Origin: a virus
Virus record (IMG/VR): IMGVR_UViG_3300024346_008124
Coordinates: 1 to 64,000 of that record
Direction: 5' to 3' (one strand)
DNA: 64,000 nucleotides
In this document: in pieces, positions 2,705 to 16,403 of the stretch
How the letters are laid out: each line of letters opens with the position of its first letter
How positions within the stretch are numbered: position 1 is the first letter of the stretch
Notes under the pieces: generated by a model
The model's input: the letters and a program-made list of their open reading frames with translations, nothing else
Database searches by the model: none
Told to the model about the DNA's origin: nothing
Program-made: the position numbers and the translations under genes

Positions 2705-3128
2705 CGCAGCGCAATACTGTGCTGAATTAGTCTGCATCAGAAAAAGAGAGCGAGACAACAAGGGGAGTCTTGAGTTTAAGTTTTGGAATAAGTCACAAAA
2801 AGAAGAATATGAAACCCAAATCAGGTTAGCGTCTAAACTAATTAAAAAATACGGAGACAAATCTCTAGTATCTTATTTAAATGGCCCAAGTGGTAGAAAC
2901 GTTTACTCCTTGGGCTTTTTGCACAGTTCTAAAAAGTTTGTTTTAATCACTAAGTTTGTAGAAGCGGGCGTTGCAAAACGATCCGAAGAGGTTAAAATAG
3001 AAGCAGAGAAACCAAAAAAAGTTATAGAAATATCAGAAGATGTAGAGTACAAGCCAAGAACAAAGAAGAAAAAGAAAACATTAATGTCAAAACTTAGGGA
3101 TACCGATGGCAAAAAAGAAAACTCCTGA
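2643..3128 (+). CDS. unknown conserved-looking phage protein
   Basis: This 161-residue protein has a compact N-terminal two thirds around AAQYCAELVCIRKRE, KFWNKSQ and SLGFLHSSKKFVL. A lysine-rich disordered tail (KPRTKKKKK) follows. Proteins with a similar arrangement (YCAEL, then KFWN, then a GLxF-type core) occur in my memory of environmental phages next to RecA/UvsX genes, without known function. The ATG is the first in frame and overlaps the upstream gene by 62 bases; the end overlaps the recombinase start by 23 bases. A DNA-binding partner of the recombinase is possible but is inference from position and charge. Confidence 0.72.
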   Translation: MNQKKSNIQKYRSISTRQPCNAAQYCAELVCIRKRERDNKGSLEFKFWNKSQKEEYETQIRLASKLIKKYGDKSLVSYLNGPSGRNVYSLGFLHSSKKFVLITKFVEAGVAKRSEEVKIEAEKPKKVIEISEDVEYKPRTKKKKKTLMSKLRDTDGKKENS

Positions 3129-4188
3129 ATATTTGAAAAGTCAAATAAAAGAATACGGAAACATAATCAAAACAGGCACAGAGGTGCTTAAAGAAAAGAG
3201 CGACTACAAAGTAATTTCTATCAGTCCCGCTATTGATATAGCGCTAGGCGGTGGGGTTAGAGAGGGCTGTTGGGTTACTCTTACAGGCGATCCTAAAAGT
3301 GGTAAAACAACAACCGCTATGCAGATCGCTACCAACTGTCAAAAGGAGGGTAGACCAGTCATCTATCTAGATGCGGAAGGTCGTCTTAAAGATATGAATT
3401 TTCAGGTAAACGATTTCGACCCTGAGAAAATAGAGGTTATTGCACCAGAAGATAAACCTTTACCGGCAGAAGAGTTCTTAGAAATGGCCTACAAAATGAT
3501 GAGCCATCCAGACTATCAGGGAGCGATTCTGATAATTGATTCTATATCTTCTTTGATTCCCGCTAAAGAATTAGATGGAGACTTTAGTCCGGGGCGGGCG
3601 GGGCTACCAAAGATTTTGTCCATCTTTACAAAAAAGATTGGACAACTTCTACCAAGGCAACGAGGACTTGTTATTGCCATAACTCACTATATCGCAAACA
3701 CAGGGGGGTTTGGTAAGGCAAAACTTTCTGATGGCGGTAACAAAATTCAATATCAAGCAGATACTAGAATGGAAATTGCGGGTGGTGGTGAAAAAATCTC
3801 CGCAGTAAAACCTTGGGAAGATGCTAGCAAGAATAGAATTGGTCAAGTAGTAAACTGGAAAATTATTTGTTCTTCGATGGGACCGCCGGGAGGACAGGTG
3901 CAAAGCTATATTAGATATGGTCATGGTATCGACTCAACCCAAGAGGTTCTTCAGTTGTCGCTAGACTTGGGTTTTATTGACAGGTCTGGAGCTTGGTTCT
4001 CTTGCCCATTCTTAGAAACAAATAAAGAACTTGCTAAAGAGGTTGATCCAGATGTTGATGTAGAAGATGCTGAAAAACTTACTAAAGCTTTTAAGTTTCA
4101 GGGTCAAGACAAGGTTTATAGCTTTTTAAACAGAAACCCTAAACTAGTAAAGTCTCTAGAGTCGATGATAAAAGAGGTCTTGGCTTGA
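3106..4188 (+). CDS. uvsX: RecA/UvsX-like recombinase
   Basis: This 360-residue RecA-fold strand-exchange ATPase has Walker A GDPKSGKTT at residues 61-69 and Walker B GAILIIDS at about 139-146. A DAEG segment at about 89-92 matches the YLDAE motif of RecA. ITHYIANTGGFGK corresponds to the L2-type DNA-binding loop. The length is close to bacterial RecA and phage T4 UvsX. It would drive recombination-dependent replication and repair. Its ATG lies inside the preceding gene, 23 bases before that gene's end, and it shares TTGA with the downstream nuclease gene. The symbol reflects the phage type and not a proven orthology. Confidence 0.92.
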   Translation: MAKKKTPEYLKSQIKEYGNIIKTGTEVLKEKSDYKVISISPAIDIALGGGVREGCWVTLTGDPKSGKTTTAMQIATNCQKEGRPVIYLDAEGRLKDMNFQVNDFDPEKIEVIAPEDKPLPAEEFLEMAYKMMSHPDYQGAILIIDSISSLIPAKELDGDFSPGRAGLPKILSIFTKKIGQLLPRQRGLVIAITHYIANTGGFGKAKLSDGGNKIQYQADTRMEIAGGGEKISAVKPWEDASKNRIGQVVNWKIICSSMGPPGGQVQSYIRYGHGIDSTQEVLQLSLDLGFIDRSGAWFSCPFLETNKELAKEVDPDVDVEDAEKLTKAFKFQGQDKVYSFLNRNPKLVKSLESMIKEVLA

Positions 4189-5016: not shown

Positions 5017-5465
5017 TGAGCGAAGATATTATAAAAACGCTGGTAAGTATAATGACCCCAGAGCAAAAGGCTGAATTAATTAGCAAGCTCCAAGATCCAG
5101 ATTTACCTCTCGATAACACGGCGTATCAGCAAAAGGGAAAGCAGGTTATTTTAAAAGAACAGTCCAAGCCACCTAAAAGTACGGCAGTGGATGTGGATGA
5201 TTTTACAATGACAAACGATAAGGAAGGTCCAAACTCTACACAGGTGGAAGTTAAGAAAAGGGTTAACTTATTTAGCGATGATGGAACGGAGCATAAAGAC
5301 TCTTTAAACAAAACCCCAGAAGTAACCCCCACAGAAAGAAAAAGACAACCAGTAAAAAAAATACCACAAACATGTTCAGGATGCTCTTCCGTGGTGCAGG
5401 TTCACCCTACTCATAAAAGAGAAAACTTCATCTGTGACAAATGCTTGGGGTCAAGGTCTAGATGA
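5016..5465 (+). CDS. unknown protein with C-terminal zinc ribbon
   Basis: The 149-residue protein begins with a short helical segment (IIKTLVSIMTPEQKAELISKL), continues with a low-complexity hydrophilic linker and ends with a zinc ribbon: CSGC at about residues 122-125 and CDKC near 142-145. The linker is rich in Lys, Asp, Thr and Pro and looks disordered. The ATG overlaps the previous TAA by one base, and the stop overlaps the helicase ATG as ATGA. A role as an adaptor that recruits the helicase or binds ssDNA is possible from the layout only. Confidence 0.72.
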   Translation: MSEDIIKTLVSIMTPEQKAELISKLQDPDLPLDNTAYQQKGKQVILKEQSKPPKSTAVDVDDFTMTNDKEGPNSTQVEVKKRVNLFSDDGTEHKDSLNKTPEVTPTERKRQPVKKIPQTCSGCSSVVQVHPTHKRENFICDKCLGSRSR

Positions 5466-6925
5466 CAAAGAAAAAGTTAGAAGATCTAGCGTCGGAAAGA
5501 GCCGTACTTGCGGCTCTTTGTCAATATGGATTAGATTGCTATCTAGAAATAGACTTTGTAGACGCTGATCATTTTACAAGTGACATGAATCAGCTTTTAT
5601 ATCACTGTATATATAAGTCTGTTTCAGAAAACTCTAAGGTAGAATTGGCATCTATACTTTCTGCCGCAAACAGTCTTGGGGTAAGTGAATCTATAAACAA
5701 CAAAGAAGAGATGTCGTTTATAAGGTCTTTGTTTAATTTTCCTATACATAAAGAAAATGCAAAGTCTCACGCTGTAAAGATAGCAAAACTTAAATTAGCA
5801 AGAGATTTAAAGAAAACACTCAAGGCTTGCGAAAAAGAGCTAGACGCTACTAATGGCGATGAAGATATAATGGATCTTATATCCAAAGTAGAAGCGCCTA
5901 TATTAGACGCTACTGCCGATATATATCAATCATCTAATAAGAAGACTGAAATTATTGGTGAAGATATTGATGATTATATTGAATACCTTTCTGAAAACGT
6001 ATCTGAAAACGTAGGAATACCAACAGGGTTTCCTAGGTATGATGCAGCGATTGGCGGTGGATTAAGAAGAAAGTGTGTTGATCTCGTCGCCGCACGTCCC
6101 AAGGTGGGTAAGTCCATGTTTGGAGACGCTGTAGCGATGAATGTTTCTAGGCTGGGCATTCCTGTGTTGATGCTAGATACAGAGATGAGCAAGGAAGACC
6201 ATCTTAACAGAATGCTTGCAAATCTTAGTGGTGTAGATATTAATAAGATTTCTACTGGTAAGTTTACAGAAAACCCGCTAGAAAAAGAAAAGGTTGAAAA
6301 AGCCGCGCAAGAACTCAAAGAAATACCGTATCACTATATAAGTATAGCTGGTCAGTCTTTTGAAAACATATTAGCGTTGATGAGGAAGTGGATTTATCAG
6401 CACGTTGGCTTTGACGAGTCGGGTGTTACTAATGACTGTCTTGTAGTTTATGATTATCTAAAGCTGATGGGGTCTGAAGGTATCAGTAGCTCAATGCAGG
6501 AATACCAAGTGCTTGGTTTTCAAATAACCCAGCTACATAACTTTATGGTTAAGTATGATGTACCCTGTTTGAGTTTTGTGCAGTTAAATAGAGATGGTAT
6601 AACCAAGGAGTCTACCGATGTGGTATCAGGCTCAGACAGGCTTATATGGCTTTGTACGAGTTTTTCTATATTTAAGATGAAGTCAGAAGAAGAGGTCGCG
6701 GAAGACAAGATAGAAAACGGAAACAGGAAACTGGTTCCGGTTGTGGCTAGACATGGCTGCGGTCTTGACGACGGTGACTATATTAGTATGAATATGTTTG
6801 GAAGTATTGGTAAATTAGCAGAAGGTCAAACCAGAAATGAGCTTCATAATAATGCAAGAGCAAGAGAAGAAGGTTTTGAAATAAATGAAGAAATTGACAC
6901 AGAATCAGATATTGACAGTGTGTGA
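5462..6925 (+). CDS. dnaB: DnaB-type replicative helicase
   Basis: This 487-residue hexameric 5'-3' helicase has an N-terminal DnaB-like domain (ERAVLAALCQYG at about 12-23, then HFTSDMNQLLY) and a RecA-like C-terminal domain. Its Walker A is ARPKVGKSM at about 211-219, and Walker B is CLVVYDYLKLM near residue 325. The segment FVQLNRDG with later GSDR matches the H3/H4 helicase region. The length is normal for DnaB. It would unwind the fork with the downstream primase, with which it overlaps by 41 bases. The acidic C-terminal tail could bind partners. The start is the ATG in an ATGA overlap. Confidence 0.93.
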   Translation: MTKKKLEDLASERAVLAALCQYGLDCYLEIDFVDADHFTSDMNQLLYHCIYKSVSENSKVELASILSAANSLGVSESINNKEEMSFIRSLFNFPIHKENAKSHAVKIAKLKLARDLKKTLKACEKELDATNGDEDIMDLISKVEAPILDATADIYQSSNKKTEIIGEDIDDYIEYLSENVSENVGIPTGFPRYDAAIGGGLRRKCVDLVAARPKVGKSMFGDAVAMNVSRLGIPVLMLDTEMSKEDHLNRMLANLSGVDINKISTGKFTENPLEKEKVEKAAQELKEIPYHYISIAGQSFENILALMRKWIYQHVGFDESGVTNDCLVVYDYLKLMGSEGISSSMQEYQVLGFQITQLHNFMVKYDVPCLSFVQLNRDGITKESTDVVSGSDRLIWLCTSFSIFKMKSEEEVAEDKIENGNRKLVPVVARHGCGLDDGDYISMNMFGSIGKLAEGQTRNELHNNARAREEGFEINEEIDTESDIDSV

Positions 6926-7928
6926 TAAGCTGGCAGAGCATATTCCTGAGATTCTAGAACATTTTGATATTGAAGGATTAGAGTACCCAAATAGGTATTC
7001 GTTTCCATGTCCTATTCACGGCGGGGATAGTCCAGAGGGCTGTAGCGTATTTACAGACGGAGACTCTGCCGTTGGTAACTGGCGATGTTGGACAAATCAA
7101 TGCGAACAAGACTACCAAAGTAATATATTTGGATTTATAAGAGGAGTACTATCAAATAAAGATGGTAAAGACGTTTCCTTAAATGCAACGTATAACTTTT
7201 GTCTAGAGTTTCTTAAACTTGATGATTCGCAACTAGAAACCAAAGACCGTCAACCAAACAAAGAAGTTAAATTACTAGAAATATTTGAAAGAAAGATTGA
7301 AAGAAAACCCACTACAATATCTAGGGAACAGATACAGTCTACTATAAATATACCGGCAGAATACTATGTCAATAGAGGGTATAGAGAAGAAACCTTAAAA
7401 ACTTTTGATATAGGCACATGTTTTGCAGAAAATAAGCCAATGTCTGGAAGAGTTGTTGTTCCTATTTACGATGAAGACTATAACTATGTAGGGTGTGTTG
7501 GGAGGTCTATTAACGACGAACTAAAGCCTAAGTGGTTACACAGTAAAGGGTTTAAGAAAAACGTTCTTTATGGATTCAACATTGCTCAGAAATTCATGGG
7601 AAGCAAAGGCGTTCTTTTTATACTAGAAGGACAGGGCGATGTTTTAAGAATGTATGAAGCAGGATTTAAAAATTCAGTTGGTATTTTTGGTTCTAGTATA
7701 AGTGATGACCAGCTATTAACATTAGAAAAAAGCGGCGCTTTAAACTTGGTGATACTCACAGACTATGACGAAGCTGGAAAAAAAGCCGCGAGCCAAATTG
7801 TCAAAAAATGCGGAAGAAGATTTAATTACTACAGACCGCAAATTTCTAAAAAGGACATTGGTGAAATGACCACAGAACAAATTCATGAAGAACTTAACCC
7901 TCAATTGGAGAAGGATAACTTAATATGA
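6885..7928 (+). CDS. dnaG: DnaG-type primase
   Basis: The 347-residue protein has an N-terminal zinc-binding site (C42, H45, C68, C73, with PCPIHGG preceding) and a TOPRIM domain. The TOPRIM glutamate is in FILEGQGDVL near residue 247 and the Asp-x-Asp motif is in LTDYDEAG near 290-295. Cellular DnaG is about 600 residues; this form lacks the long C-terminal helicase-binding domain, as many phage primases do. It lays RNA primers for the polymerase. The ATG lies 41 bases inside the helicase gene, which implies translational coupling. Confidence 0.9.
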   Translation: MKKLTQNQILTVCDKLAEHIPEILEHFDIEGLEYPNRYSFPCPIHGGDSPEGCSVFTDGDSAVGNWRCWTNQCEQDYQSNIFGFIRGVLSNKDGKDVSLNATYNFCLEFLKLDDSQLETKDRQPNKEVKLLEIFERKIERKPTTISREQIQSTINIPAEYYVNRGYREETLKTFDIGTCFAENKPMSGRVVVPIYDEDYNYVGCVGRSINDELKPKWLHSKGFKKNVLYGFNIAQKFMGSKGVLFILEGQGDVLRMYEAGFKNSVGIFGSSISDDQLLTLEKSGALNLVILTDYDEAGKKAASQIVKKCGRRFNYYRPQISKKDIGEMTTEQIHEELNPQLEKDNLI

Positions 7929-8815
7929 CCACTAGAATTTTAGCGTTTGCTGGCAATAAGCAGTCTGGTAAAACGACATGCAGTAATTTTATACACGGTT
8001 ATCAACTTAGATCTAATAATATAGTTAACGCATTTAATGTAACAGATAAAGGTGATCTTGTTGTTGATACAGAATTTATCGACTCTAAAGGAGAAAAGGA
8101 ACAGGGACACGCTTTACTAGACGTAAAAAGAATAGATCTGGAGTTTGCTGAATGGGCAGTGTATAATATGTGGCCCTATGTAAAAAGCTATTCTTTTGCA
8201 GACCCCCTTAAAAATATCGCAACAGAGTTATTCGATATTAAGGAAGAGAATATTAAGGGTACTGACATACAGAAGAATGCTAAAATACCTATCCTTTGGG
8301 AGTCCATGCCCGGAATCATAAGCTGTCCTAAGTTGGCTAAAAATCCTCAGATAAAAAAACTTATTGATGATGGAACCTTTATGTATCACAAAAAGGGGAA
8401 AATGACAGGCCGGGAATTCTTGCAGTTTTTTGGATCAGAAGTATGTAGAAAGATTTACGAAGAAATTTGGGTTTCTAGGCTGGTCAAAGATGTAGAGTCG
8501 GAGGGTTCGCTACTGGCGGTAGTTGATGATTGCCGGTATCCAAATGAAGCGGAGGCCATTCAGAATGCTGGCGGTAAAGTTATTAAATTAACAAGATCAA
8601 ACCATGAAGATTCTCATAAAAGCGAAAACGCATTTGATAAAGATTATGAATTCGATGCTGTTATTGATAATCAAAACATGTCTATACAAGAAGCTCACGT
8701 AGAACTTGTAAAGACTATTGAAGATTGGGGATGGTTAGGATCTCCGATACCAGAGATTCCAGAATCAGAACCCGTTCTTGTGGGCGGCATCCACCAATTT
8801 AGAGAGTCAGAATGA
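7925..8815 (+). CDS. deoxynucleoside monophosphate kinase
   Basis: This 296-residue P-loop kinase resembles the phage T4 gp1 family. Walker A GNKQSGKTT is at residues 10-18. SFADPLK and the segment GREFLQFFGSEVCR are typical of phage dNMP kinases, and DDCRYPNEAEAI with KLTR forms the later nucleotide-binding part. It would phosphorylate dNMPs to dNDPs for phage DNA synthesis, recycling host DNA breakdown products. It overlaps the primase gene by 4 bases and the next gene by 4 bases. Confidence 0.9.
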   Translation: MTTRILAFAGNKQSGKTTCSNFIHGYQLRSNNIVNAFNVTDKGDLVVDTEFIDSKGEKEQGHALLDVKRIDLEFAEWAVYNMWPYVKSYSFADPLKNIATELFDIKEENIKGTDIQKNAKIPILWESMPGIISCPKLAKNPQIKKLIDDGTFMYHKKGKMTGREFLQFFGSEVCRKIYEEIWVSRLVKDVESEGSLLAVVDDCRYPNEAEAIQNAGGKVIKLTRSNHEDSHKSENAFDKDYEFDAVIDNQNMSIQEAHVELVKTIEDWGWLGSPIPEIPESEPVLVGGIHQFRESE

Positions 8816-9834
8816 TAGTAACATATATAAGATCTTCCAGCTATGGAAATTACGATTTCTGTCAAATGCAGTATTTTATGACTTATGTATTAGGATACAG
8901 GTCGGAGTCGGGGAAAAAAGCGCAACTTGGTACGGCATGTCATAAGGTGATGGAATGTTTAGCGTCATGCACAAAAGAGCTACAGGACAACGCAGACAAA
9001 AAAGAGTTGTTAATTATAGACGATGCTATTGGTGAAGTTGAATTCACACCAAGAAAACTAAAGACTAAGAAGTTTGTCGCAGATCTTTTGAGTCGCAGTT
9101 ATGACCACTACGGGTCTACAGATAGCCATAAGTATTACCCTGCTGATTTTAAGTTTTGCGAAAAGCAAATTGATACAGCACTAACCTTTAACGATGGTCA
9201 ATTTGATCCAAGGAAAAGAGATATAGTTGACACAGAGCCAACTTTTGATATTGCTATAGAAGAAGACTGGGCTAAATATAAATATGAAATGCCGGACGGA
9301 ACAACCGTAGAAGGTAATCTAGCGATCAAAGGAACGATTGACTTAGTTACAAAAATAGACGATAATATAATTGAAGTCGTAGATTGGAAAACGGGACAAA
9401 GAAAGAATTGGGCAACAGGAGAAGTTAAAACTTATGAAAAACTTCTTGACGATGCACAGTTGTTGCTGTATAATTATGCTATATCAAAACTTTACCCGGA
9501 TTATGATCAAGCCATCATGTCTATCTTCTTCACTAGAGACGGTGGTCCTTTTAGTATGTGTTTTGATAAGAGGGATCAAGATAGATTTTTAGAAATGTTA
9601 AGAAAAAGATTTGAAGAGATTAAAGAGAACGTCAAACCAAGGCCGATTAGTTACAGTAGGAGGGATTTTAGATGTCAAAAACTTTGTCACTTCTACAAGA
9701 ACGATTGGCCGGGAACTAATACCACCATGTGCGAGCATGTGGAACAAAGGCTGCATACTATAGGCCACAAAGAAACAGTAAAAGAGTGTACTAATGAAGG
9801 TTTTAACATAGGATATTACGAGGCTCCGGGATAA
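8812..9834 (+). CDS. Cas4/RecB-like PD-(D/E)XK exonuclease
   Basis: The 340-residue protein follows the PDDEXK_1/RecB-nuclease layout: an N-terminal SSYGNYDFCQMQYF box, HK in GTACHKVME, Asp in IKGTIDLV (about 176), then EVVDWKTG (about 190-197) as the D/E-x-K motif, and QLLLYNYAI as the Q-box. One cysteine at residue 17 and a C-terminal cluster (FRCQKLC near 288-292 and MC near 307) match the four-cysteine iron-sulphur pattern of Cas4/AddB nucleases. It would resect DNA ends for the RecA-like protein. The ATG overlaps the kinase stop as ATGA. Confidence 0.85.
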   Translation: MIVTYIRSSSYGNYDFCQMQYFMTYVLGYRSESGKKAQLGTACHKVMECLASCTKELQDNADKKELLIIDDAIGEVEFTPRKLKTKKFVADLLSRSYDHYGSTDSHKYYPADFKFCEKQIDTALTFNDGQFDPRKRDIVDTEPTFDIAIEEDWAKYKYEMPDGTTVEGNLAIKGTIDLVTKIDDNIIEVVDWKTGQRKNWATGEVKTYEKLLDDAQLLLYNYAISKLYPDYDQAIMSIFFTRDGGPFSMCFDKRDQDRFLEMLRKRFEEIKENVKPRPISYSRRDFRCQKLCHFYKNDWPGTNTTMCEHVEQRLHTIGHKETVKECTNEGFNIGYYEAPG

Positions 9835-10760
9835 TGGCAGAATTAATTGATTTAAATAACGAGTTTGATTTAGGTAACATGTTTACTCTAAAGGTTGCTA
9901 GAAAACTTAGCGATATTCTAGATAGTAGATATAGGATTATAGTAAAGTATGACGCGCAAGAACTTCCAGAATATGATGATGATAAGTTAAATATCTTAAT
10001 AGCAACCTCTAGAGAAAACCACCAAATTCCAGAAGGTTTTTTTAGAGAAGATGTATTCTTGATATTTCAAAACTATCATGCCCTTGACAGGTGGGATAAC
10101 TGCTTAGATACGCCGGTAACTTTTCCTATGCCACTAGGTCCATTTAACGATTGCTACCATGACATTGAGATAAAGCCTATATCGCAAAGAAAGTACGACT
10201 TTACTTTTGTGGGACAAATACCTCACACCGGCACTAGGGATTGTTTCAAGAGAGGCTTAGACAAGCTGGTGGAAGAGTCTGGAGATAAGTTTAAATACAA
10301 AATTGAATTTACAGATGGGTTTAGTAAGGGCTTAAAACCCAAAGAGTACATGGAGCTTTTAGCTGATTCTAAATTGTCGCTGTGTCCGGGGGGAGCATAC
10401 AGCATGGAGACATTTAGATTTTTTGAATCCACGCTAATGGGGGCCATTCCAATTGTTGATCGGCTACCTAAGTTTTGGTATTATGAGCAATCATCATTCT
10501 TTAAGGGCGCTTGGCACGATCTTGACAACACTCTATCAAAGTCTTTAAACTTTCTACAAAATTCTGGCTGTAGGGGTTTACTTGAAGGTTTAGCAGTGTA
10601 TAATAACGAAGTGATGGATGTAGACAATTTGGCCTTTAAAATGAAGTCTACAGTAAATCAAAGACATAAAAATCTAGAGCCTTCTAAAGAATACCTTAAT
10701 CAATTAAGAGAGTTTTTGAAAAATGAGTTGGATTCCGATCAACTGCAAAACGCACTTTAG
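9834..10760 (+). CDS. exostosin-like glycosyltransferase
   Basis: This 308-residue protein carries the exostosin/GT47-like motif in its second half: LCPGGAYSMETFRFFESTL followed by GAIPIV. An earlier strand, DFTFVGQI, is also typical. A clear paralogue is at 28412-29230 (PRGSGSLESFRFFEA) and a more distant one at 25584-26339. It is unusual for sitting between a nuclease and the polymerase gene, away from the sugar cluster. Its stop lies 38 bases inside the polymerase gene. The sugar and acceptor are unknown; modification of DNA or virion proteins is possible. Confidence 0.78.
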   Translation: MAELIDLNNEFDLGNMFTLKVARKLSDILDSRYRIIVKYDAQELPEYDDDKLNILIATSRENHQIPEGFFREDVFLIFQNYHALDRWDNCLDTPVTFPMPLGPFNDCYHDIEIKPISQRKYDFTFVGQIPHTGTRDCFKRGLDKLVEESGDKFKYKIEFTDGFSKGLKPKEYMELLADSKLSLCPGGAYSMETFRFFESTLMGAIPIVDRLPKFWYYEQSSFFKGAWHDLDNTLSKSLNFLQNSGCRGLLEGLAVYNNEVMDVDNLAFKMKSTVNQRHKNLEPSKEYLNQLREFLKNELDSDQLQNAL

Positions 10761-12294
10761 TTTACAGCAGGGTTTTTGTAAAACAGATAAGCTGGCAAAA
10801 AGATGCGCTGAGTACGGCTACACCGCCTGCGGTATAGCCGATCTTGGCACTGTCTCTGGTGCTGTAGAGTTTCACCAAGAGTGTAAAAAGCAAGGCGTAA
10901 AACCCATCATTGGATGCGAGTTCGACGGGTTCATACTCTATGCAAAAAACAAAGATGGCTGGTTTGACTTGGTTAAATATGTATCAAATCAAAACGTAGA
11001 AGTTTTAAAAGAGATAGCAGAGAATGGCAACGTTCTATGTGTGACTCCAAAGAAAAATGGATTTGCTAAGATATTTAAGTCCAATCATATCAAAATAGAT
11101 TACGCTCAGGAGGCTATCTATTATGTAGATAAAGACGATGCAGATTGTCATAGAATTATGTTGTGTAGCAAGCTTAAAAAGACTCTTGCCAAACTAGAAG
11201 GCGTGGAGCATGAGTTCTCAGAATTTTTCGACGGAGACGATAGATGGTATCTACCAGATATGACAGACTTATCAGTAGGTCACGAAATTGAAAAAAGATG
11301 CGAAGAATATGAACTAACAGGACCGCCAATGCTGCCAGACTTTGATTGTCCAAAGGGGTTTGATCAAAACGAATACCTAAAAGAACTATGTCGTCATGGC
11401 TGGAAGAAGAAGTTAATTCCATCTAAGAAAGTCTATTTAGATGTAGACAAAGAAGAATATCTTGATAGAGTTAAAACAGAATTAGAAGTCATTTTTAAAG
11501 CTGGACTGTCTGGATATTTTTTGATTGTACAAGACATTGTAAACCATGTCAAAGATAAAGGATGGATCGCTGGACCCGGAAGAGGCTCTGCTGCTGGATG
11601 TTTAGTTTCTTATCTACTGGGAATTACAGAGGTAGACCCGATAGAGTACGGACTAATCTTTGAGAGGTTCTATAACGAAGGAAGAAATACAGATGATTAT
11701 ATTTCTTTGCCGGATATTGATGTAGACGTTCCTGCGGAGCATAGAGACGAAGTTATTGACTATATCAAGGAAAAGTATGGCGAGGAAAACGTTTCTCAAA
11801 TGATTACATTTGGCAGGCTGCAAGGAAGGTCTGCGTTAAAAGAAGTTTTAAGAATTAATGATGCTGTATCATTTTCCGAAATGAACGAGATAACGGATTG
11901 TATTCCAGACGAAGCGCTCATATCCGACCAATTAGAGTTGATGGATAAGGAAGATAGGTCTATCATAAGGTGGGCTTTAGAAAATGAATCAGAAGATCTA
12001 AAGGGTTGGTGTAAGATAGGCGAGGAAGGAAAGCTGGAAGGAGATCTAGCTAAGTTTTTTGAACAGGCTATTAATATTGAAGGTACAAATAAATCTCAGG
12101 GCAAACACCCCGCTGGTGTAATCATATCAAAGTTTAAACTTAAAGACGTATGTCCTATGGTGAAAGATGCTACTGGTAAAAACATAGTTGGATTTGAAAT
12201 GAACGATCTAGAGTCGCAAGGACATGTTAAATTTGACATTTTAGCCATTGATCTATTAAGTAAAATCATGGAAATAACAAACAAGGGAGAATAA
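10723..12294 (+). CDS. dnaE: DNA polymerase III alpha subunit, N-terminal part (PHP and palm)
   Basis: This 523-residue protein is the first half of a C-family polymerase. A PHP-like domain occupies the N-terminus, but the metal-binding His-x-His is replaced (NCKTHFSL instead of HLHTEYSL) and the later Asp-His is Asp-Leu. The palm follows: GPGRGSAAG near 285-293, catalytic PDIDVD with D331 and D333, and VKFDIL with the third catalytic Asp at D505. The gene stops 18 residues after D505. Fingers, HhH and OB parts are supplied by the gene at 13196. The ATG at 10723 lies 38 bases inside the upstream gene. There is no intein sequence at the end. Confidence 0.92.
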   Translation: MSWIPINCKTHFSLQQGFCKTDKLAKRCAEYGYTACGIADLGTVSGAVEFHQECKKQGVKPIIGCEFDGFILYAKNKDGWFDLVKYVSNQNVEVLKEIAENGNVLCVTPKKNGFAKIFKSNHIKIDYAQEAIYYVDKDDADCHRIMLCSKLKKTLAKLEGVEHEFSEFFDGDDRWYLPDMTDLSVGHEIEKRCEEYELTGPPMLPDFDCPKGFDQNEYLKELCRHGWKKKLIPSKKVYLDVDKEEYLDRVKTELEVIFKAGLSGYFLIVQDIVNHVKDKGWIAGPGRGSAAGCLVSYLLGITEVDPIEYGLIFERFYNEGRNTDDYISLPDIDVDVPAEHRDEVIDYIKEKYGEENVSQMITFGRLQGRSALKEVLRINDAVSFSEMNEITDCIPDEALISDQLELMDKEDRSIIRWALENESEDLKGWCKIGEEGKLEGDLAKFFEQAINIEGTNKSQGKHPAGVIISKFKLKDVCPMVKDATGKNIVGFEMNDLESQGHVKFDILAIDLLSKIMEITNKGE

Positions 12295-12295
12295 A

Positions 12296-12514
12296 ATGAA
12301 CGCTACAGCAGAAGATTATAAGTCCGTAATATTTTCTGGTTGCTCTATTGAATCAAACAAGGTTCATATTTGCAACCTAAGAAACTACAATAAAAGACTT
12401 GTTGCAGATAATGAATATCAAGTTTGGTCTGATAAACATAAAGAATACAAGCTATACAAAAACATAGATGACGCTGTTAATAAATTTATAGAACTAAAAG
12501 GAAAACGAGCATGA
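12296..12514 (+). CDS. tiny unknown protein between polymerase halves
   Basis: This 72-residue protein starts one base after the polymerase stop, behind a good AAGGGAG site, and its end overlaps the exonuclease ATG by 4 bases. It is rich in Asn, Tyr and Lys with a single compact core (HICNLRNYNKRLVADNEYQVW). I recognise no family. It does not resemble an intein half, an intron-encoded endonuclease or the missing polymerase residues. A role as a small subunit joining the polymerase halves or the exonuclease is possible only from position. Confidence 0.7.
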   Translation: MNATAEDYKSVIFSGCSIESNKVHICNLRNYNKRLVADNEYQVWSDKHKEYKLYKNIDDAVNKFIELKGKRA

Positions 12515-13203
12515 ATTATAGAGACATAATAGTATTTGACTTTGAGACCGGTGGCAGGAATCCTTACACTTGTCAACCAACTCAGATTGCCGCTGTAGCG
12601 ATTCATGCTAGAAAGTTAGAACTCCAGCCGGGAGGAACCTTTAACAGCGAGATTAGGCCAATCATAGACGATGACAAGGCTATTAAGGCGGGCGTTGATC
12701 CGCTTGAAGAGGAAGCTCTAAAGATAACGAGAAAAACAAGAGATGAATTAGCCAAAGCACCACTGCCCAAAACTGTTTGGCGTAAATTCTCGCAGTTTTG
12801 TGACAAGTACAACTTTAAGAAAACAAGTTACTATGCCCCAATAGCTGCGGGTTATAATATCAATGGCTACGATATGCCTATCGTTGAACGCATGTGTCAA
12901 CAATACGGACCTACCCATGCAAAGAATGGAAGACAGGGAATCTTTAACCCTATCTATACAATTGATGTCATGCAACATATCTACTGCTGGTTTGAAAACA
13001 ATCAAGAAGTTAAAAAGTATAACATGGATTACATGCGCGACTACTTTGGTATGAGTCAAGCTAGCAAGGACAACGCTCACGATGCCTTGCAAGATGTAAA
13101 AGATACCGCTAATCTGATGATTAAATTTATGAAGTTACAAAGGACGTTGTTAAAGAAGGTAAAGTTTGAAAAGACATTTGCCAACGGGGAAATTTATGTT
13201 TGA
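12511..13203 (+). CDS. dnaQ: DnaQ-like 3'-5' exonuclease (proofreading)
   Basis: This 230-residue DEDDh exonuclease has Exo I VFDFETGG at residues 8-15 (Asp and Glu), Exo II AGYNINGYDMPIV, and Exo III NAHDALQDVKDTA with His and Asp four residues apart plus one. It is the size of epsilon's catalytic domain. It lies between the two halves of the polymerase gene and overlaps the downstream half by 8 bases, so it would be made in step with it and most likely proofreads for it. The PHP domain of the polymerase has lost its metal ligands, which fits a separate proofreader. The C-terminus is lysine-rich and may bind the polymerase. Confidence 0.9.
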   Translation: MNYRDIIVFDFETGGRNPYTCQPTQIAAVAIHARKLELQPGGTFNSEIRPIIDDDKAIKAGVDPLEEEALKITRKTRDELAKAPLPKTVWRKFSQFCDKYNFKKTSYYAPIAAGYNINGYDMPIVERMCQQYGPTHAKNGRQGIFNPIYTIDVMQHIYCWFENNQEVKKYNMDYMRDYFGMSQASKDNAHDALQDVKDTANLMIKFMKLQRTLLKKVKFEKTFANGEIYV

Positions 13204-14734
13204 TATCAACGATTTTAACGATGATAATGTTTGGGATTTGATTTGCGAAGGACGTACCAAGGGTGTTTTTCAACTTGAGTCTAACCTCGGAAGGCACTGG
13301 GCTAAGAAGGTTAGTCCAAGGAGTATAAACGAATTAGCCGCTTTACTTAGTCTAATTAGGCCGGGGTGCTTGAAGGCGTATAAAGACGGTAAAAGCATGA
13401 CTCAGCATTATGCTGATAGAAAAGCTAATCTAGATCCCGTTGTTTACGAGCATGAATCTATTGAGCCTATCCTTAAAGAGACCTATGGAGTTCTTGTTTA
13501 CCAAGAGCAGTCTATGATGATGGCTCAAAAACTAGCTGGCTTTGATCTGAAAGAGGCTGATGGACTAAGGAAGGCTATCGGTAAAAAGAAGGCTGACTTG
13601 ATGGAGCAGGTTAAGAAGTCTTTTTTAGAGGGTGCGGAGAAACAGGGGATTGTAAACAAAGAAATTGCGGAAGAGATTTTCTCTTGGATCGAGAAGTCTA
13701 ACCGCTATGCCTTTAATAAGTCTCACGCCGTCTCTTATGCGATCAACGCATATTGGAGCGCTTACTGCAAAAACTATCGTATGCTTGACTTTTATACGTC
13801 CTACCTTAACAGGTCGGATAGGAAACCTAAGCCACAGATTGAAATCAAGCAACTTGTAATGGATGCGAAGTTTGAGGGTATAGATGTGTATCCACCAAGA
13901 CTCCAGCATATGCATACAAACTTTACAGATATTGATAATAAAATATACTTCGGTATGCGACATATCAAAAACGTAGGAACCAGAGAGTGCGAAAAGATAG
14001 AAGAACTTCTTTCACAAAAAGATATATCAAAATATACTTGGATGGATGTTCTTGTTAAGATTATTAATGGTTGCAAGCTTAACAAAAGGGCTGTGGTGTC
14101 TTTGATTTCCGTAGGAGCTTTCAACGGTGTCAATAATTCTAGGTATCGGCAAGAGATGCTGTATGAGTTTGACAGTTGGAAAAACCTTTCGGCCAGAGAG
14201 CAAAAGTATATAGAAGAAAATTACAATAGCAAAAACTCTCTTAGTGATAATATAGAGGGTTTGATTAATAATCTTAAAATAAGCTCAAGAAGAGTAGATA
14301 CCGTAAAAGATATTAAAAAGTCTTTAGATAACCCATTTTATGATCTCGCAGATAGCGCAGCAACTATTGCGGATCAAGAGTTTAAATTCCTTGGCTGTTC
14401 CATTACCTGCTCCAAAACAGACTATGCGATAAGTAGTCAAAATTTTATGTGCAAAGATGTGTCTAAAGGTGCTATAAAAGGGAAAGTAATGCTTGCTGTT
14501 CACATAAACTCTCTAAGAGAATACAAAACAAAGAAGGGGAAAACCCCCGGACAGCTAATGGCTTTTCTAGCAGTTGAAGATTCTAGTGGCGAGCTTGATT
14601 CTGTCACTGTTTTTCCAGAGGTTTACAAGGAACACAAAGACGTTCTTATCGAAGGTAATACCGTTTTAATAAACGGAGAGATATCAAAAAAAGACAACAC
14701 CTCTGTAATCATAAATAAAGCAAGTCAAATATAA
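13196..14734 (+). CDS. dnaE: DNA polymerase III alpha subunit, C-terminal part (fingers, HhH, OB)
   Basis: I choose the ATG at 13196 (512 residues) because GGGGA lies just upstream and the product then begins MFDINDFND; an earlier ATG at 13166 has no clear site. The sequence resumes DnaE with TKGVFQLES, SLIRPGCL, YGVLVYQEQ, RKAIGKKK and FNKSHAVSYA. A helix-hairpin-helix-like segment (GMRHIKNVGTRECEKIEE) follows, and a C-terminal OB fold (GKVMLAV to GNTVLINGEI). Together with 10723-12294 the domain order is complete, with no repeated or missing block at the joint. This half lacks the catalytic aspartates and cannot act alone. Confidence 0.92.
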   Translation: MFDINDFNDDNVWDLICEGRTKGVFQLESNLGRHWAKKVSPRSINELAALLSLIRPGCLKAYKDGKSMTQHYADRKANLDPVVYEHESIEPILKETYGVLVYQEQSMMMAQKLAGFDLKEADGLRKAIGKKKADLMEQVKKSFLEGAEKQGIVNKEIAEEIFSWIEKSNRYAFNKSHAVSYAINAYWSAYCKNYRMLDFYTSYLNRSDRKPKPQIEIKQLVMDAKFEGIDVYPPRLQHMHTNFTDIDNKIYFGMRHIKNVGTRECEKIEELLSQKDISKYTWMDVLVKIINGCKLNKRAVVSLISVGAFNGVNNSRYRQEMLYEFDSWKNLSAREQKYIEENYNSKNSLSDNIEGLINNLKISSRRVDTVKDIKKSLDNPFYDLADSAATIADQEFKFLGCSITCSKTDYAISSQNFMCKDVSKGAIKGKVMLAVHINSLREYKTKKGKTPGQLMAFLAVEDSSGELDSVTVFPEVYKEHKDVLIEGNTVLINGEISKKDNTSVIINKASQI

Positions 14735-14756: not shown

Positions 14757-16403
14757 ATGAAGAAAAAAATACTTTTTTGCTCAGAAGCCTCTTGGTACGC
14801 AACAGGATATTCTGTGTACACCAAAGAAGTTTTATCTAGACTGTGTCAGATAGAGGATTTCGAGGTGGCCGAGCTAGGATGTTATGCAGAAAGTTCAGAC
14901 GCGCAGGATAAAAACATTCCTTGGAAATTTTATGGAAACAAACCTTCTCCAAACAGCCCTGAATTTGAGTCATATAAGAGCAACCCAAGCGCCCAGTTTG
15001 GAGAGCAGTCTTTTAATTCTGTGTTATTAGACTTTAAACCAGATATCGTAATGGATATTAGAGATTGGTGGATGATAGAATATCAGCAAAGATCTCCTTT
15101 CAGAGACTTTTTTCATTGGTCGATTATGCCTACTGTGGACGCAGAGCCGCAGGCTGACCAGTGGATTAATACGTATTCTTCTGCGGATTCCGTGTTTGCA
15201 TATTCTGAATTTGGTAGAGACACTATGCTTAAACAATGCGATAGTATAAAGTTTGTTGACATAGCATCGCCAGCGGCTAGCAATAGCTTTACACCAGCAC
15301 CGAATAAGCGCGACCATAAAATTAATATGGGCATTTCTCCAGACTCTTTCATTGTAGGAACGGTCATGAGAAACCAAAGAAGAAAGCTGTATCCAGATTT
15401 AATGGAGTCGTTTAGAAGATTTCTAGACCAAACCCAAGATCCAAACGCTTTCCTTTATTGTCACACATACTACCCAGATGTTGGTTGGGATCTACCTAAT
15501 CTAATTTATGAAAATGGGTTGTCTGGTAGAGTCTTGATGACATACAAGTGTAAATCCTGTAAAAATATATCTGTTGATTTCTTCAAGGATGCCGTTAGCG
15601 CCTGTGATAAATGTAAATCATTCTCCAATGCCATAGTGGGAATATCTAATCCCATAGACGAAAAAGAGCTTTCTGATATATACAATTGTTTTGATATTTA
15701 CGTTCAGTATGCTAATAGCGAAGGGTTCGGTATGCCCCAGCTAGAGGCTGCCAACTGCGGGCTACCCGTTATTTCTACTCACTACTCAGCTATGGAGTCT
15801 GTTGTTAAAAATATTGGTGGATATGGGGTTATACCTAAGCAATACTATGTAGAATGTGAAACAGGGTGCAAGAGGGCTATACCAGATAACGATTCGTTCG
15901 TTGGTCTTTTGACTCAGCTTCATAGTGAAAAAGATAAGTTAAAACAGTTAGGGTCTCAAGTTAGAGACAGAGCGTTAGAAAACTATAGCTGGGACAAGAC
16001 CGCCGATGCTTGGGCTAAACATTTTAACGCAGTAGAAAAAAAAGACCCAGCGACTACGTGGTATTCTCCGCTAAATGCGCCAGAGCCAGAAATAAACATG
16101 TTACAAAATCCAGAATCTATGGCGCATTCTGTAAATCATATATTTACTAATGTGTTACATAAGCCAGAATGGATAGGTGGTTATTTATGGAAGAGGGTTT
16201 TGAGAGACGTAACCTTCGGCTATAGGTGCGAAAACATGGATAAACAGTTCTATTTTAACGAATCTCATAAAAAAACCAACACTTCAAATGCTCCGTTCTG
16301 CCTAGAGGACGCATATAAAGAAATGATAAACTTTAGAAAGCAATTAAATAACTGGGAACACTCCAGAGTGCAACGTAACCAACAGGAGATGGAAAATAAA
16401 TGA
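14757..16403 (+). CDS. GT4-type glycosyltransferase with inserted zinc ribbon
   Basis: This 548-residue GT-B protein begins KKILFCSEASWYATGYS (nucleotide-sugar side of the N-lobe). Its donor site is near residues 318-335, at YANSEGFGMPQLEAANCG, with the E-x7-E pattern of GT4. Between the lobes, at about residues 262-288, CKSCK and CDKC form a four-cysteine zinc ribbon not expected in ordinary GT4 enzymes. A C-terminal extension of about 120 residues follows the GT core. The gene starts 22 bases after the polymerase with no strong ribosome site. It opens the sugar cluster. Donor and acceptor are unknown. Confidence 0.85.
   Translation: MKKKILFCSEASWYATGYSVYTKEVLSRLCQIEDFEVAELGCYAESSDAQDKNIPWKFYGNKPSPNSPEFESYKSNPSAQFGEQSFNSVLLDFKPDIVMDIRDWWMIEYQQRSPFRDFFHWSIMPTVDAEPQADQWINTYSSADSVFAYSEFGRDTMLKQCDSIKFVDIASPAASNSFTPAPNKRDHKINMGISPDSFIVGTVMRNQRRKLYPDLMESFRRFLDQTQDPNAFLYCHTYYPDVGWDLPNLIYENGLSGRVLMTYKCKSCKNISVDFFKDAVSACDKCKSFSNAIVGISNPIDEKELSDIYNCFDIYVQYANSEGFGMPQLEAANCGLPVISTHYSAMESVVKNIGGYGVIPKQYYVECETGCKRAIPDNDSFVGLLTQLHSEKDKLKQLGSQVRDRALENYSWDKTADAWAKHFNAVEKKDPATTWYSPLNAPEPEINMLQNPESMAHSVNHIFTNVLHKPEWIGGYLWKRVLRDVTFGYRCENMDKQFYFNESHKKTNTSNAPFCLEDAYKEMINFRKQLNNWEHSRVQRNQQEMENK

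Follow-up and report, generated by a model that had tools for sequence, protein, structure and literature searches.

A phage DNA polymerase III alpha encoded in two halves divided between palm and fingers, with a proofreading exonuclease gene in the break

The viral DNA analyzed here (the window, 64,000 nucleotides) comprises positions 1 to 64,000 of the IMG/VR record IMGVR_UViG_3300024346_008124, a linear 79-kb record, and includes a cluster of four plus-strand genes that encodes, in two halves, a DNA polymerase III alpha of the C family (DnaE type), as defined by the domain order and the catalytic aspartates. The first gene, polN (10723..12294), codes for the N-terminal half, 523 amino acids (aa) long, which was recognized by Pfam matches, an AlphaFold2 (AF2) model and the catalytic Asp residues. 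It is followed by a gene for a 72-aa protein (12296..12514), a gene for an epsilon-like DEDDh 3′-5′ exonuclease of 230 aa (12511..13203), and polC (13196..14734), which codes for the 512-aa C-terminal half including the fingers, HhH and OB domains. The break that contains the 72-aa protein gene and the exonuclease gene spans 12292..13198 and corresponds to the palm/fingers junction, at about residues 573-585 of Escherichia coli alpha. Thus, instead of the single polypeptide that defines a C-family alpha subunit, there are two open reading frames (ORFs), about 0.9 kb apart, with an exonuclease gene between them. A first-pass annotation, made from the sequence alone, had described the genes in the break as overlapping their neighbors. 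This is the case for the 72-aa protein gene and the exonuclease gene (4 nucleotides) and for the exonuclease gene and polC (8 nucleotides), but the polN stop codon and the ATG of the 72-aa protein gene are separated by 1 nucleotide. The polC start was assigned to the ATG at 13196, and not to the mechanically called TTG at 13166, because nearly all relatives begin polC at an ATG or TTG before the same conserved segment.

PolN consists of a reduced PHP domain, palm and thumb (PF02811 and PF07733), and includes all three catalytic aspartates, Asp331, Asp333 and Asp505, which are invariant across the clade to which the window belongs (the window clade). The coordinates and frames confirmed that polN ends 18 residues past the third of them and that polC resumes at the conserved segment before GVFQLES, as had been proposed. 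PolC matches PF17657, PF14579 and, under its cut-off, PF01336 (OB), and its core fingers motifs do not vary within the window clade. Across both halves the PHP, palm, fingers, HhH and OB domains were matched in C-family order, the OB match being weak. The halves were aligned to DnaE structures: the AF2 model of polN (residues 1-523) superposes on residues 4-573 of E. coli alpha (Z 24.3, root mean square deviation 5.5, 484 residues aligned), and in the sequence alignment polN extends to E. coli residue 564 and polC picks up at 592, covering residues 592-892 of E. coli alpha and 649-948 of Taq alpha. Since the polN model reaches residue 573 and polC starts at 592, the cut is located in the palm-fingers loop. 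The two genes had been thought to give a complete polymerase, and this holds for the domains and their order; about 11 loop residues (E. coli ~574-584), however, have no counterpart in either half, and the C-terminal tau-binding region is absent, as polC reaches only to about position 1054 of NF004226, an E. coli-type model with 1146 positions. The PHP domain is present but short, and its metal-binding motifs, which many outer members keep, are lost in the window clade.

All of the 165 viral loci in which the three parts were present have the order polN-exonuclease-polC and the same cut; some contigs are counted twice in this set, which includes 131 different exonuclease sequences. With the exonuclease and polC as queries, a search of viral contigs identified about 80 with near relatives, and those carrying both halves had the same cut and gene order throughout. 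A profile search from a distant member added 80 more contigs, all of them cut, with polC identities to the distant-member reference between 96% and about 42%. In the control, a search of the same type started from the uncut DnaE of a human-gut phage, 79 of 80 viral loci were uncut and the remaining one (L322) was an in-frame interruption. Because the same arrangement is found in all 165 related loci, the cut is not a sequencing artefact, and this replication together with the matched control rules out the sequencing or assembly error that might have produced the two frames. Two of 80 bacterial or archaeal contigs, both small (L094 and L095), carry the cut family; in all likelihood they come from phages and were binned with a host. 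Among bacterial contigs tested likewise, the only cut outside the family was that of L171, which was rejected as a bacterial split as it consists of one in-frame stop in a contig with a coverage of about 1. In a tree of 66 polymerases, built by a quick method and not used to place the stem, the cut family is one clade with a long stem and a support of 100 in the Shimodaira-Hasegawa-like approximate likelihood-ratio test (SH-aLRT). No isolate of the clade was present among 50,697 phage records searched; Bacteroides phage DAC19 has a distant relative of the exonuclease, but no polymerase halves beside that gene. The clade is a large, so far uncultured phage group, and the cut is ancient, common to the clade and under selection.

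The exonuclease (PF00929, RNase T type, E 5.6e-14; also phrog_192) has an invariant DEDDh set, D10, E12, D121, H190 and D195, and is the constant partner of the locus. About 128 of the 131 different exonucleases include a C-terminal peptide, [KQ]F[EK]xxF, that persists down to about 35% overall identity and that, to judge from this conservation, may be a docking peptide. The 72-aa protein gene is present in every complete window-clade locus (59 different homologous sequences), and outside this clade it was found only in three neighboring loci, with weak similarity. AF2 predicts a helix-four strands-helix fold (mean predicted local distance difference test score, pLDDT, 84.5); the protein has no Pfam or PHROGs match, the predicted fold has no PDB match, and weak viral look-alikes are of unknown function (best E 0.0075). 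In some outer lineages its position is empty, with a gap of 9-32 nucleotides, and in others it is taken by an HNH gene or by the gene for a different small protein, either one of 60 aa with an SCC motif or one of 70 aa. Several members have a uracil-DNA glycosylase-like gene between polN and the exonuclease gene (e.g., L190:4439-4987 and L199:4748-5332); all of these genes were named by sequence inspection. The gap between the exonuclease gene and polC is a hot spot for insertions, where different members have Endonuclease VII-like and HNH endonucleases and FkbM-type methyltransferases.

PolC of the outer clades begins with a conserved CGCxF...LxC..TW extension (e.g., L094:3700-3855 and L205:5992-6150), with a further Cys close by, at either of two positions, in 49 of the 56 different N-termini. 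The extension was not found in the uncut DnaE linkers that could be extracted, and the window clade has lost it, as it has the PHP metal motifs. It is a candidate for a small zinc site at the cut that possibly stabilizes the new N-terminus of polC.

Strong purifying selection is evident in all four genes. The ratio of nonsynonymous to synonymous substitutions (dN/dS) was about 0.02-0.06 in most close pairs for polN and polC, 0.01-0.04 in most close pairs for the exonuclease gene, and mostly 0.02-0.07 for the 72-aa protein gene, although these values are noisy for pairs of very low divergence. The 79-kb record has no second polC match, no PolA and no PolB, which, together with the selection on both halves, argues against a full-length DnaE elsewhere in this DNA with the halves decaying. 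A beta clamp was looked for in the same record and was not found. Upstream of polN, also on the plus strand, are genes for a RecA-like protein (3106-4188), a DnaB-like helicase (5462-6925), a Toprim primase (6885-7928), a dNMP kinase (7925-8815) and a PD-(D/E)XK nuclease (8812-9834). The polymerase operon is adjoined on either side by glycosyltransferase-like genes (9834-10760 and 14757-16403), and the minus strand at 36441-63995, opposite to the replication genes, includes very long ORFs of 2140, 1419, 3293 and 1788 aa.

As the cut is ancient, shared and under selection, the two pieces almost certainly work together, and we consider it probable, at about 0.82, that the locus encodes a permanently two-chain C-family replicative polymerase whose halves assemble non-covalently. 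PolN would provide the palm, which has the three catalytic aspartates, and polC the fingers, HhH and OB domains that would grip template and product. Produced from one tight operon, the two would dock non-covalently at the palm-fingers interface, which is intramolecular in other DnaE proteins, and the exonuclease would join them as the proofreading subunit, probably via its conserved C-terminal peptide. The earlier proposal that one polymerase is formed by two polypeptides with no intein at this junction is strongly, if indirectly, supported by the conserved cut, the invariant residues, the dN/dS values, the lack of another polymerase in the record and the lack of an Rfam intron. Its suggestion that the genes in the break help in assembly agrees with the constancy of the exonuclease and fails for the 72-aa protein. 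Several points weigh against a two-chain replicative enzyme: the record, which is linear, may not be complete, such that an intact polymerase could lie elsewhere; the replicative role is deduced from the neighboring helicase, primase and RecA-like genes; polN was modeled by AF2 with moderate confidence (mean pLDDT 79.9); and the partial distance correlation between polN and polC, at 0.46 the highest among five neighboring genes, is weak evidence in its favor, as it could reflect linkage. Nevertheless, given the invariant motifs, the low dN/dS, the absence of a second polymerase and the replication neighbors, decay is much less likely than a two-chain polymerase that works.

The halves might no longer polymerize and might instead have another role, such as a scaffold, a repair function or an exonuclease platform, with the genome replicated by a host enzyme or the product of a missing gene. 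The possibly incomplete record, the missing clamp and the loss of the PHP metal motifs in the window clade would fit this explanation, but we regard it as improbable given that neither the three catalytic aspartates nor the core fingers motifs vary and that purifying selection acts strongly on both halves. Still harder to accept is a 72-aa protein acting as a dedicated factor that joins the halves, despite its retention in every complete window-clade locus and its low dN/dS: clades with the same cut lack it or have in its place unrelated small genes or the uracil-DNA glycosylase-like gene, and these losses and replacements preclude a general role for it in assembly. It is conceivable, although rather doubtful, that the exonuclease is a structural bridge needed for assembly, or that the fused DnaE came after the two-chain state; a bridge of this kind would couple synthesis obligatorily to proofreading.

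An unrecognized intron or trans-splicing element could also rejoin the halves into one chain, either as RNA or as protein, and other cuts in the family do resemble mobile elements. In L085 (3530-6443) and L032 (7315-10147) the N and C parts of an intein divide polC a second time, at AFNK/SHAV; the N part matches TIGR01445, the C part ends in GIATSN/S, a Vsr-like endonuclease gene (TIGR00632, weak) lies between them, and alignments to the DnaE models NF007079 and NF005616 run on into the intein parts. The polymerase of these two loci is divided among three genes, with one junction predicted to be healed by trans-splicing and the other not, and the intein site is presumably a few residues from the split-intein position of cyanobacterial DnaE. 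In L235 (2108-5101) a LAGLIDADG-like ORF interrupts polN just before PDIDID; in this locus an upstream PD-(D/E)XK gene (123-2111) appears to carry an intein. Mobile elements repeatedly cut this polymerase. At the palm/fingers break, however, no intein was detected: TIGR01445 was listed for L085 and L032 and not for the window halves, and polN ends and polC starts in polymerase sequence, leaving no space for intein halves. No Rfam intron was found at the break, even at E≤1; as Rfam also matched nothing in L235, the intended positive control, its sensitivity is limited and introns are only weakly excluded. In addition, the break includes the conserved exonuclease gene, polC has its own start, and the inserts between the halves differ in length and content. 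Rejoining is, on this evidence, very unlikely.

The most likely origin of the cut is an endonuclease insertion in a tolerated loop, with later replacement by the exonuclease gene, by analogy with phage genes split in this manner; no intermediate of such a replacement was found among the loci examined. In the Aeromonas phages 25 and 44RR the T4-type PolB is split into gp43A and gp43B in association with a homing-endonuclease insertion, the two phage 25 proteins co-purify and show polymerase activity, and nrdA of phage Aeh1 is a further case analogous to phage 25 gene 43 (PMC2988022); MIJ3 also has a split PolB (PMC6892783). The likeness resides in a phage replicative polymerase made as two polypeptides. 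The difference is that gp43A/gp43B is a PolB reported from a few phages, and that its two parts are separated by an endonuclease gene or untranslated sequence and not by a proofreading gene.

Like the E. coli Pol III core, the locus described here includes a DnaE alpha with an inactive PHP domain and a separate DEDDh exonuclease, but in E. coli alpha is one chain and epsilon is encoded elsewhere. Cyanobacterial DnaE is also encoded by two genes, with a cut inside the fingers that is healed by trans-splicing of split inteins of the Npu/Ssp type, whereas the cut in the window is at the palm/fingers border and has no detected intein. Two other divided phage dnaE genes are outside the clade. That of Tenacibaculum phage Larrie is annotated as two neighboring ORFs cut just before PDIDVD, and that of Bacillus phage KLEB27-3 (OM634661, L265:3414-7784), an independent split, is annotated with an HNH gene between its two genes and has a cut further downstream. 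A further related case is found in the group 2.2 jumbo phages, whose minimal split Pol III alpha is also a phage C-family polymerase in two proteins, which have been proposed to reconstitute the enzyme (2021, PMC7824862). That division separates a nucleoside triphosphate-binding part from a Mg/template-binding part, the genes are far apart and encode a minimal catalytic core without other domains, and a PolB is present alongside; in the window PHP, HhH and OB are present, the halves are close together and the record has no PolB. In the literature library searched, we found no account of this particular split. Split phage PolB and minimal split Pol III alpha were known already, and the arrangement described here differs from them in the cut site, the domain content, the embedded proofreading gene and the breadth of the clade.

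As no isolate of the clade is among the phage records searched, annotation pipelines probably report these loci as two partial polymerases. They can be considered instead a natural, stable and widespread two-part polymerase, cut between its catalytic and DNA-gripping parts, that offers a ready-made split point for engineering and opens to test how C-family polymerases close on DNA, whether proofreading is built into their assembly, and how an essential gene survives fragmentation.
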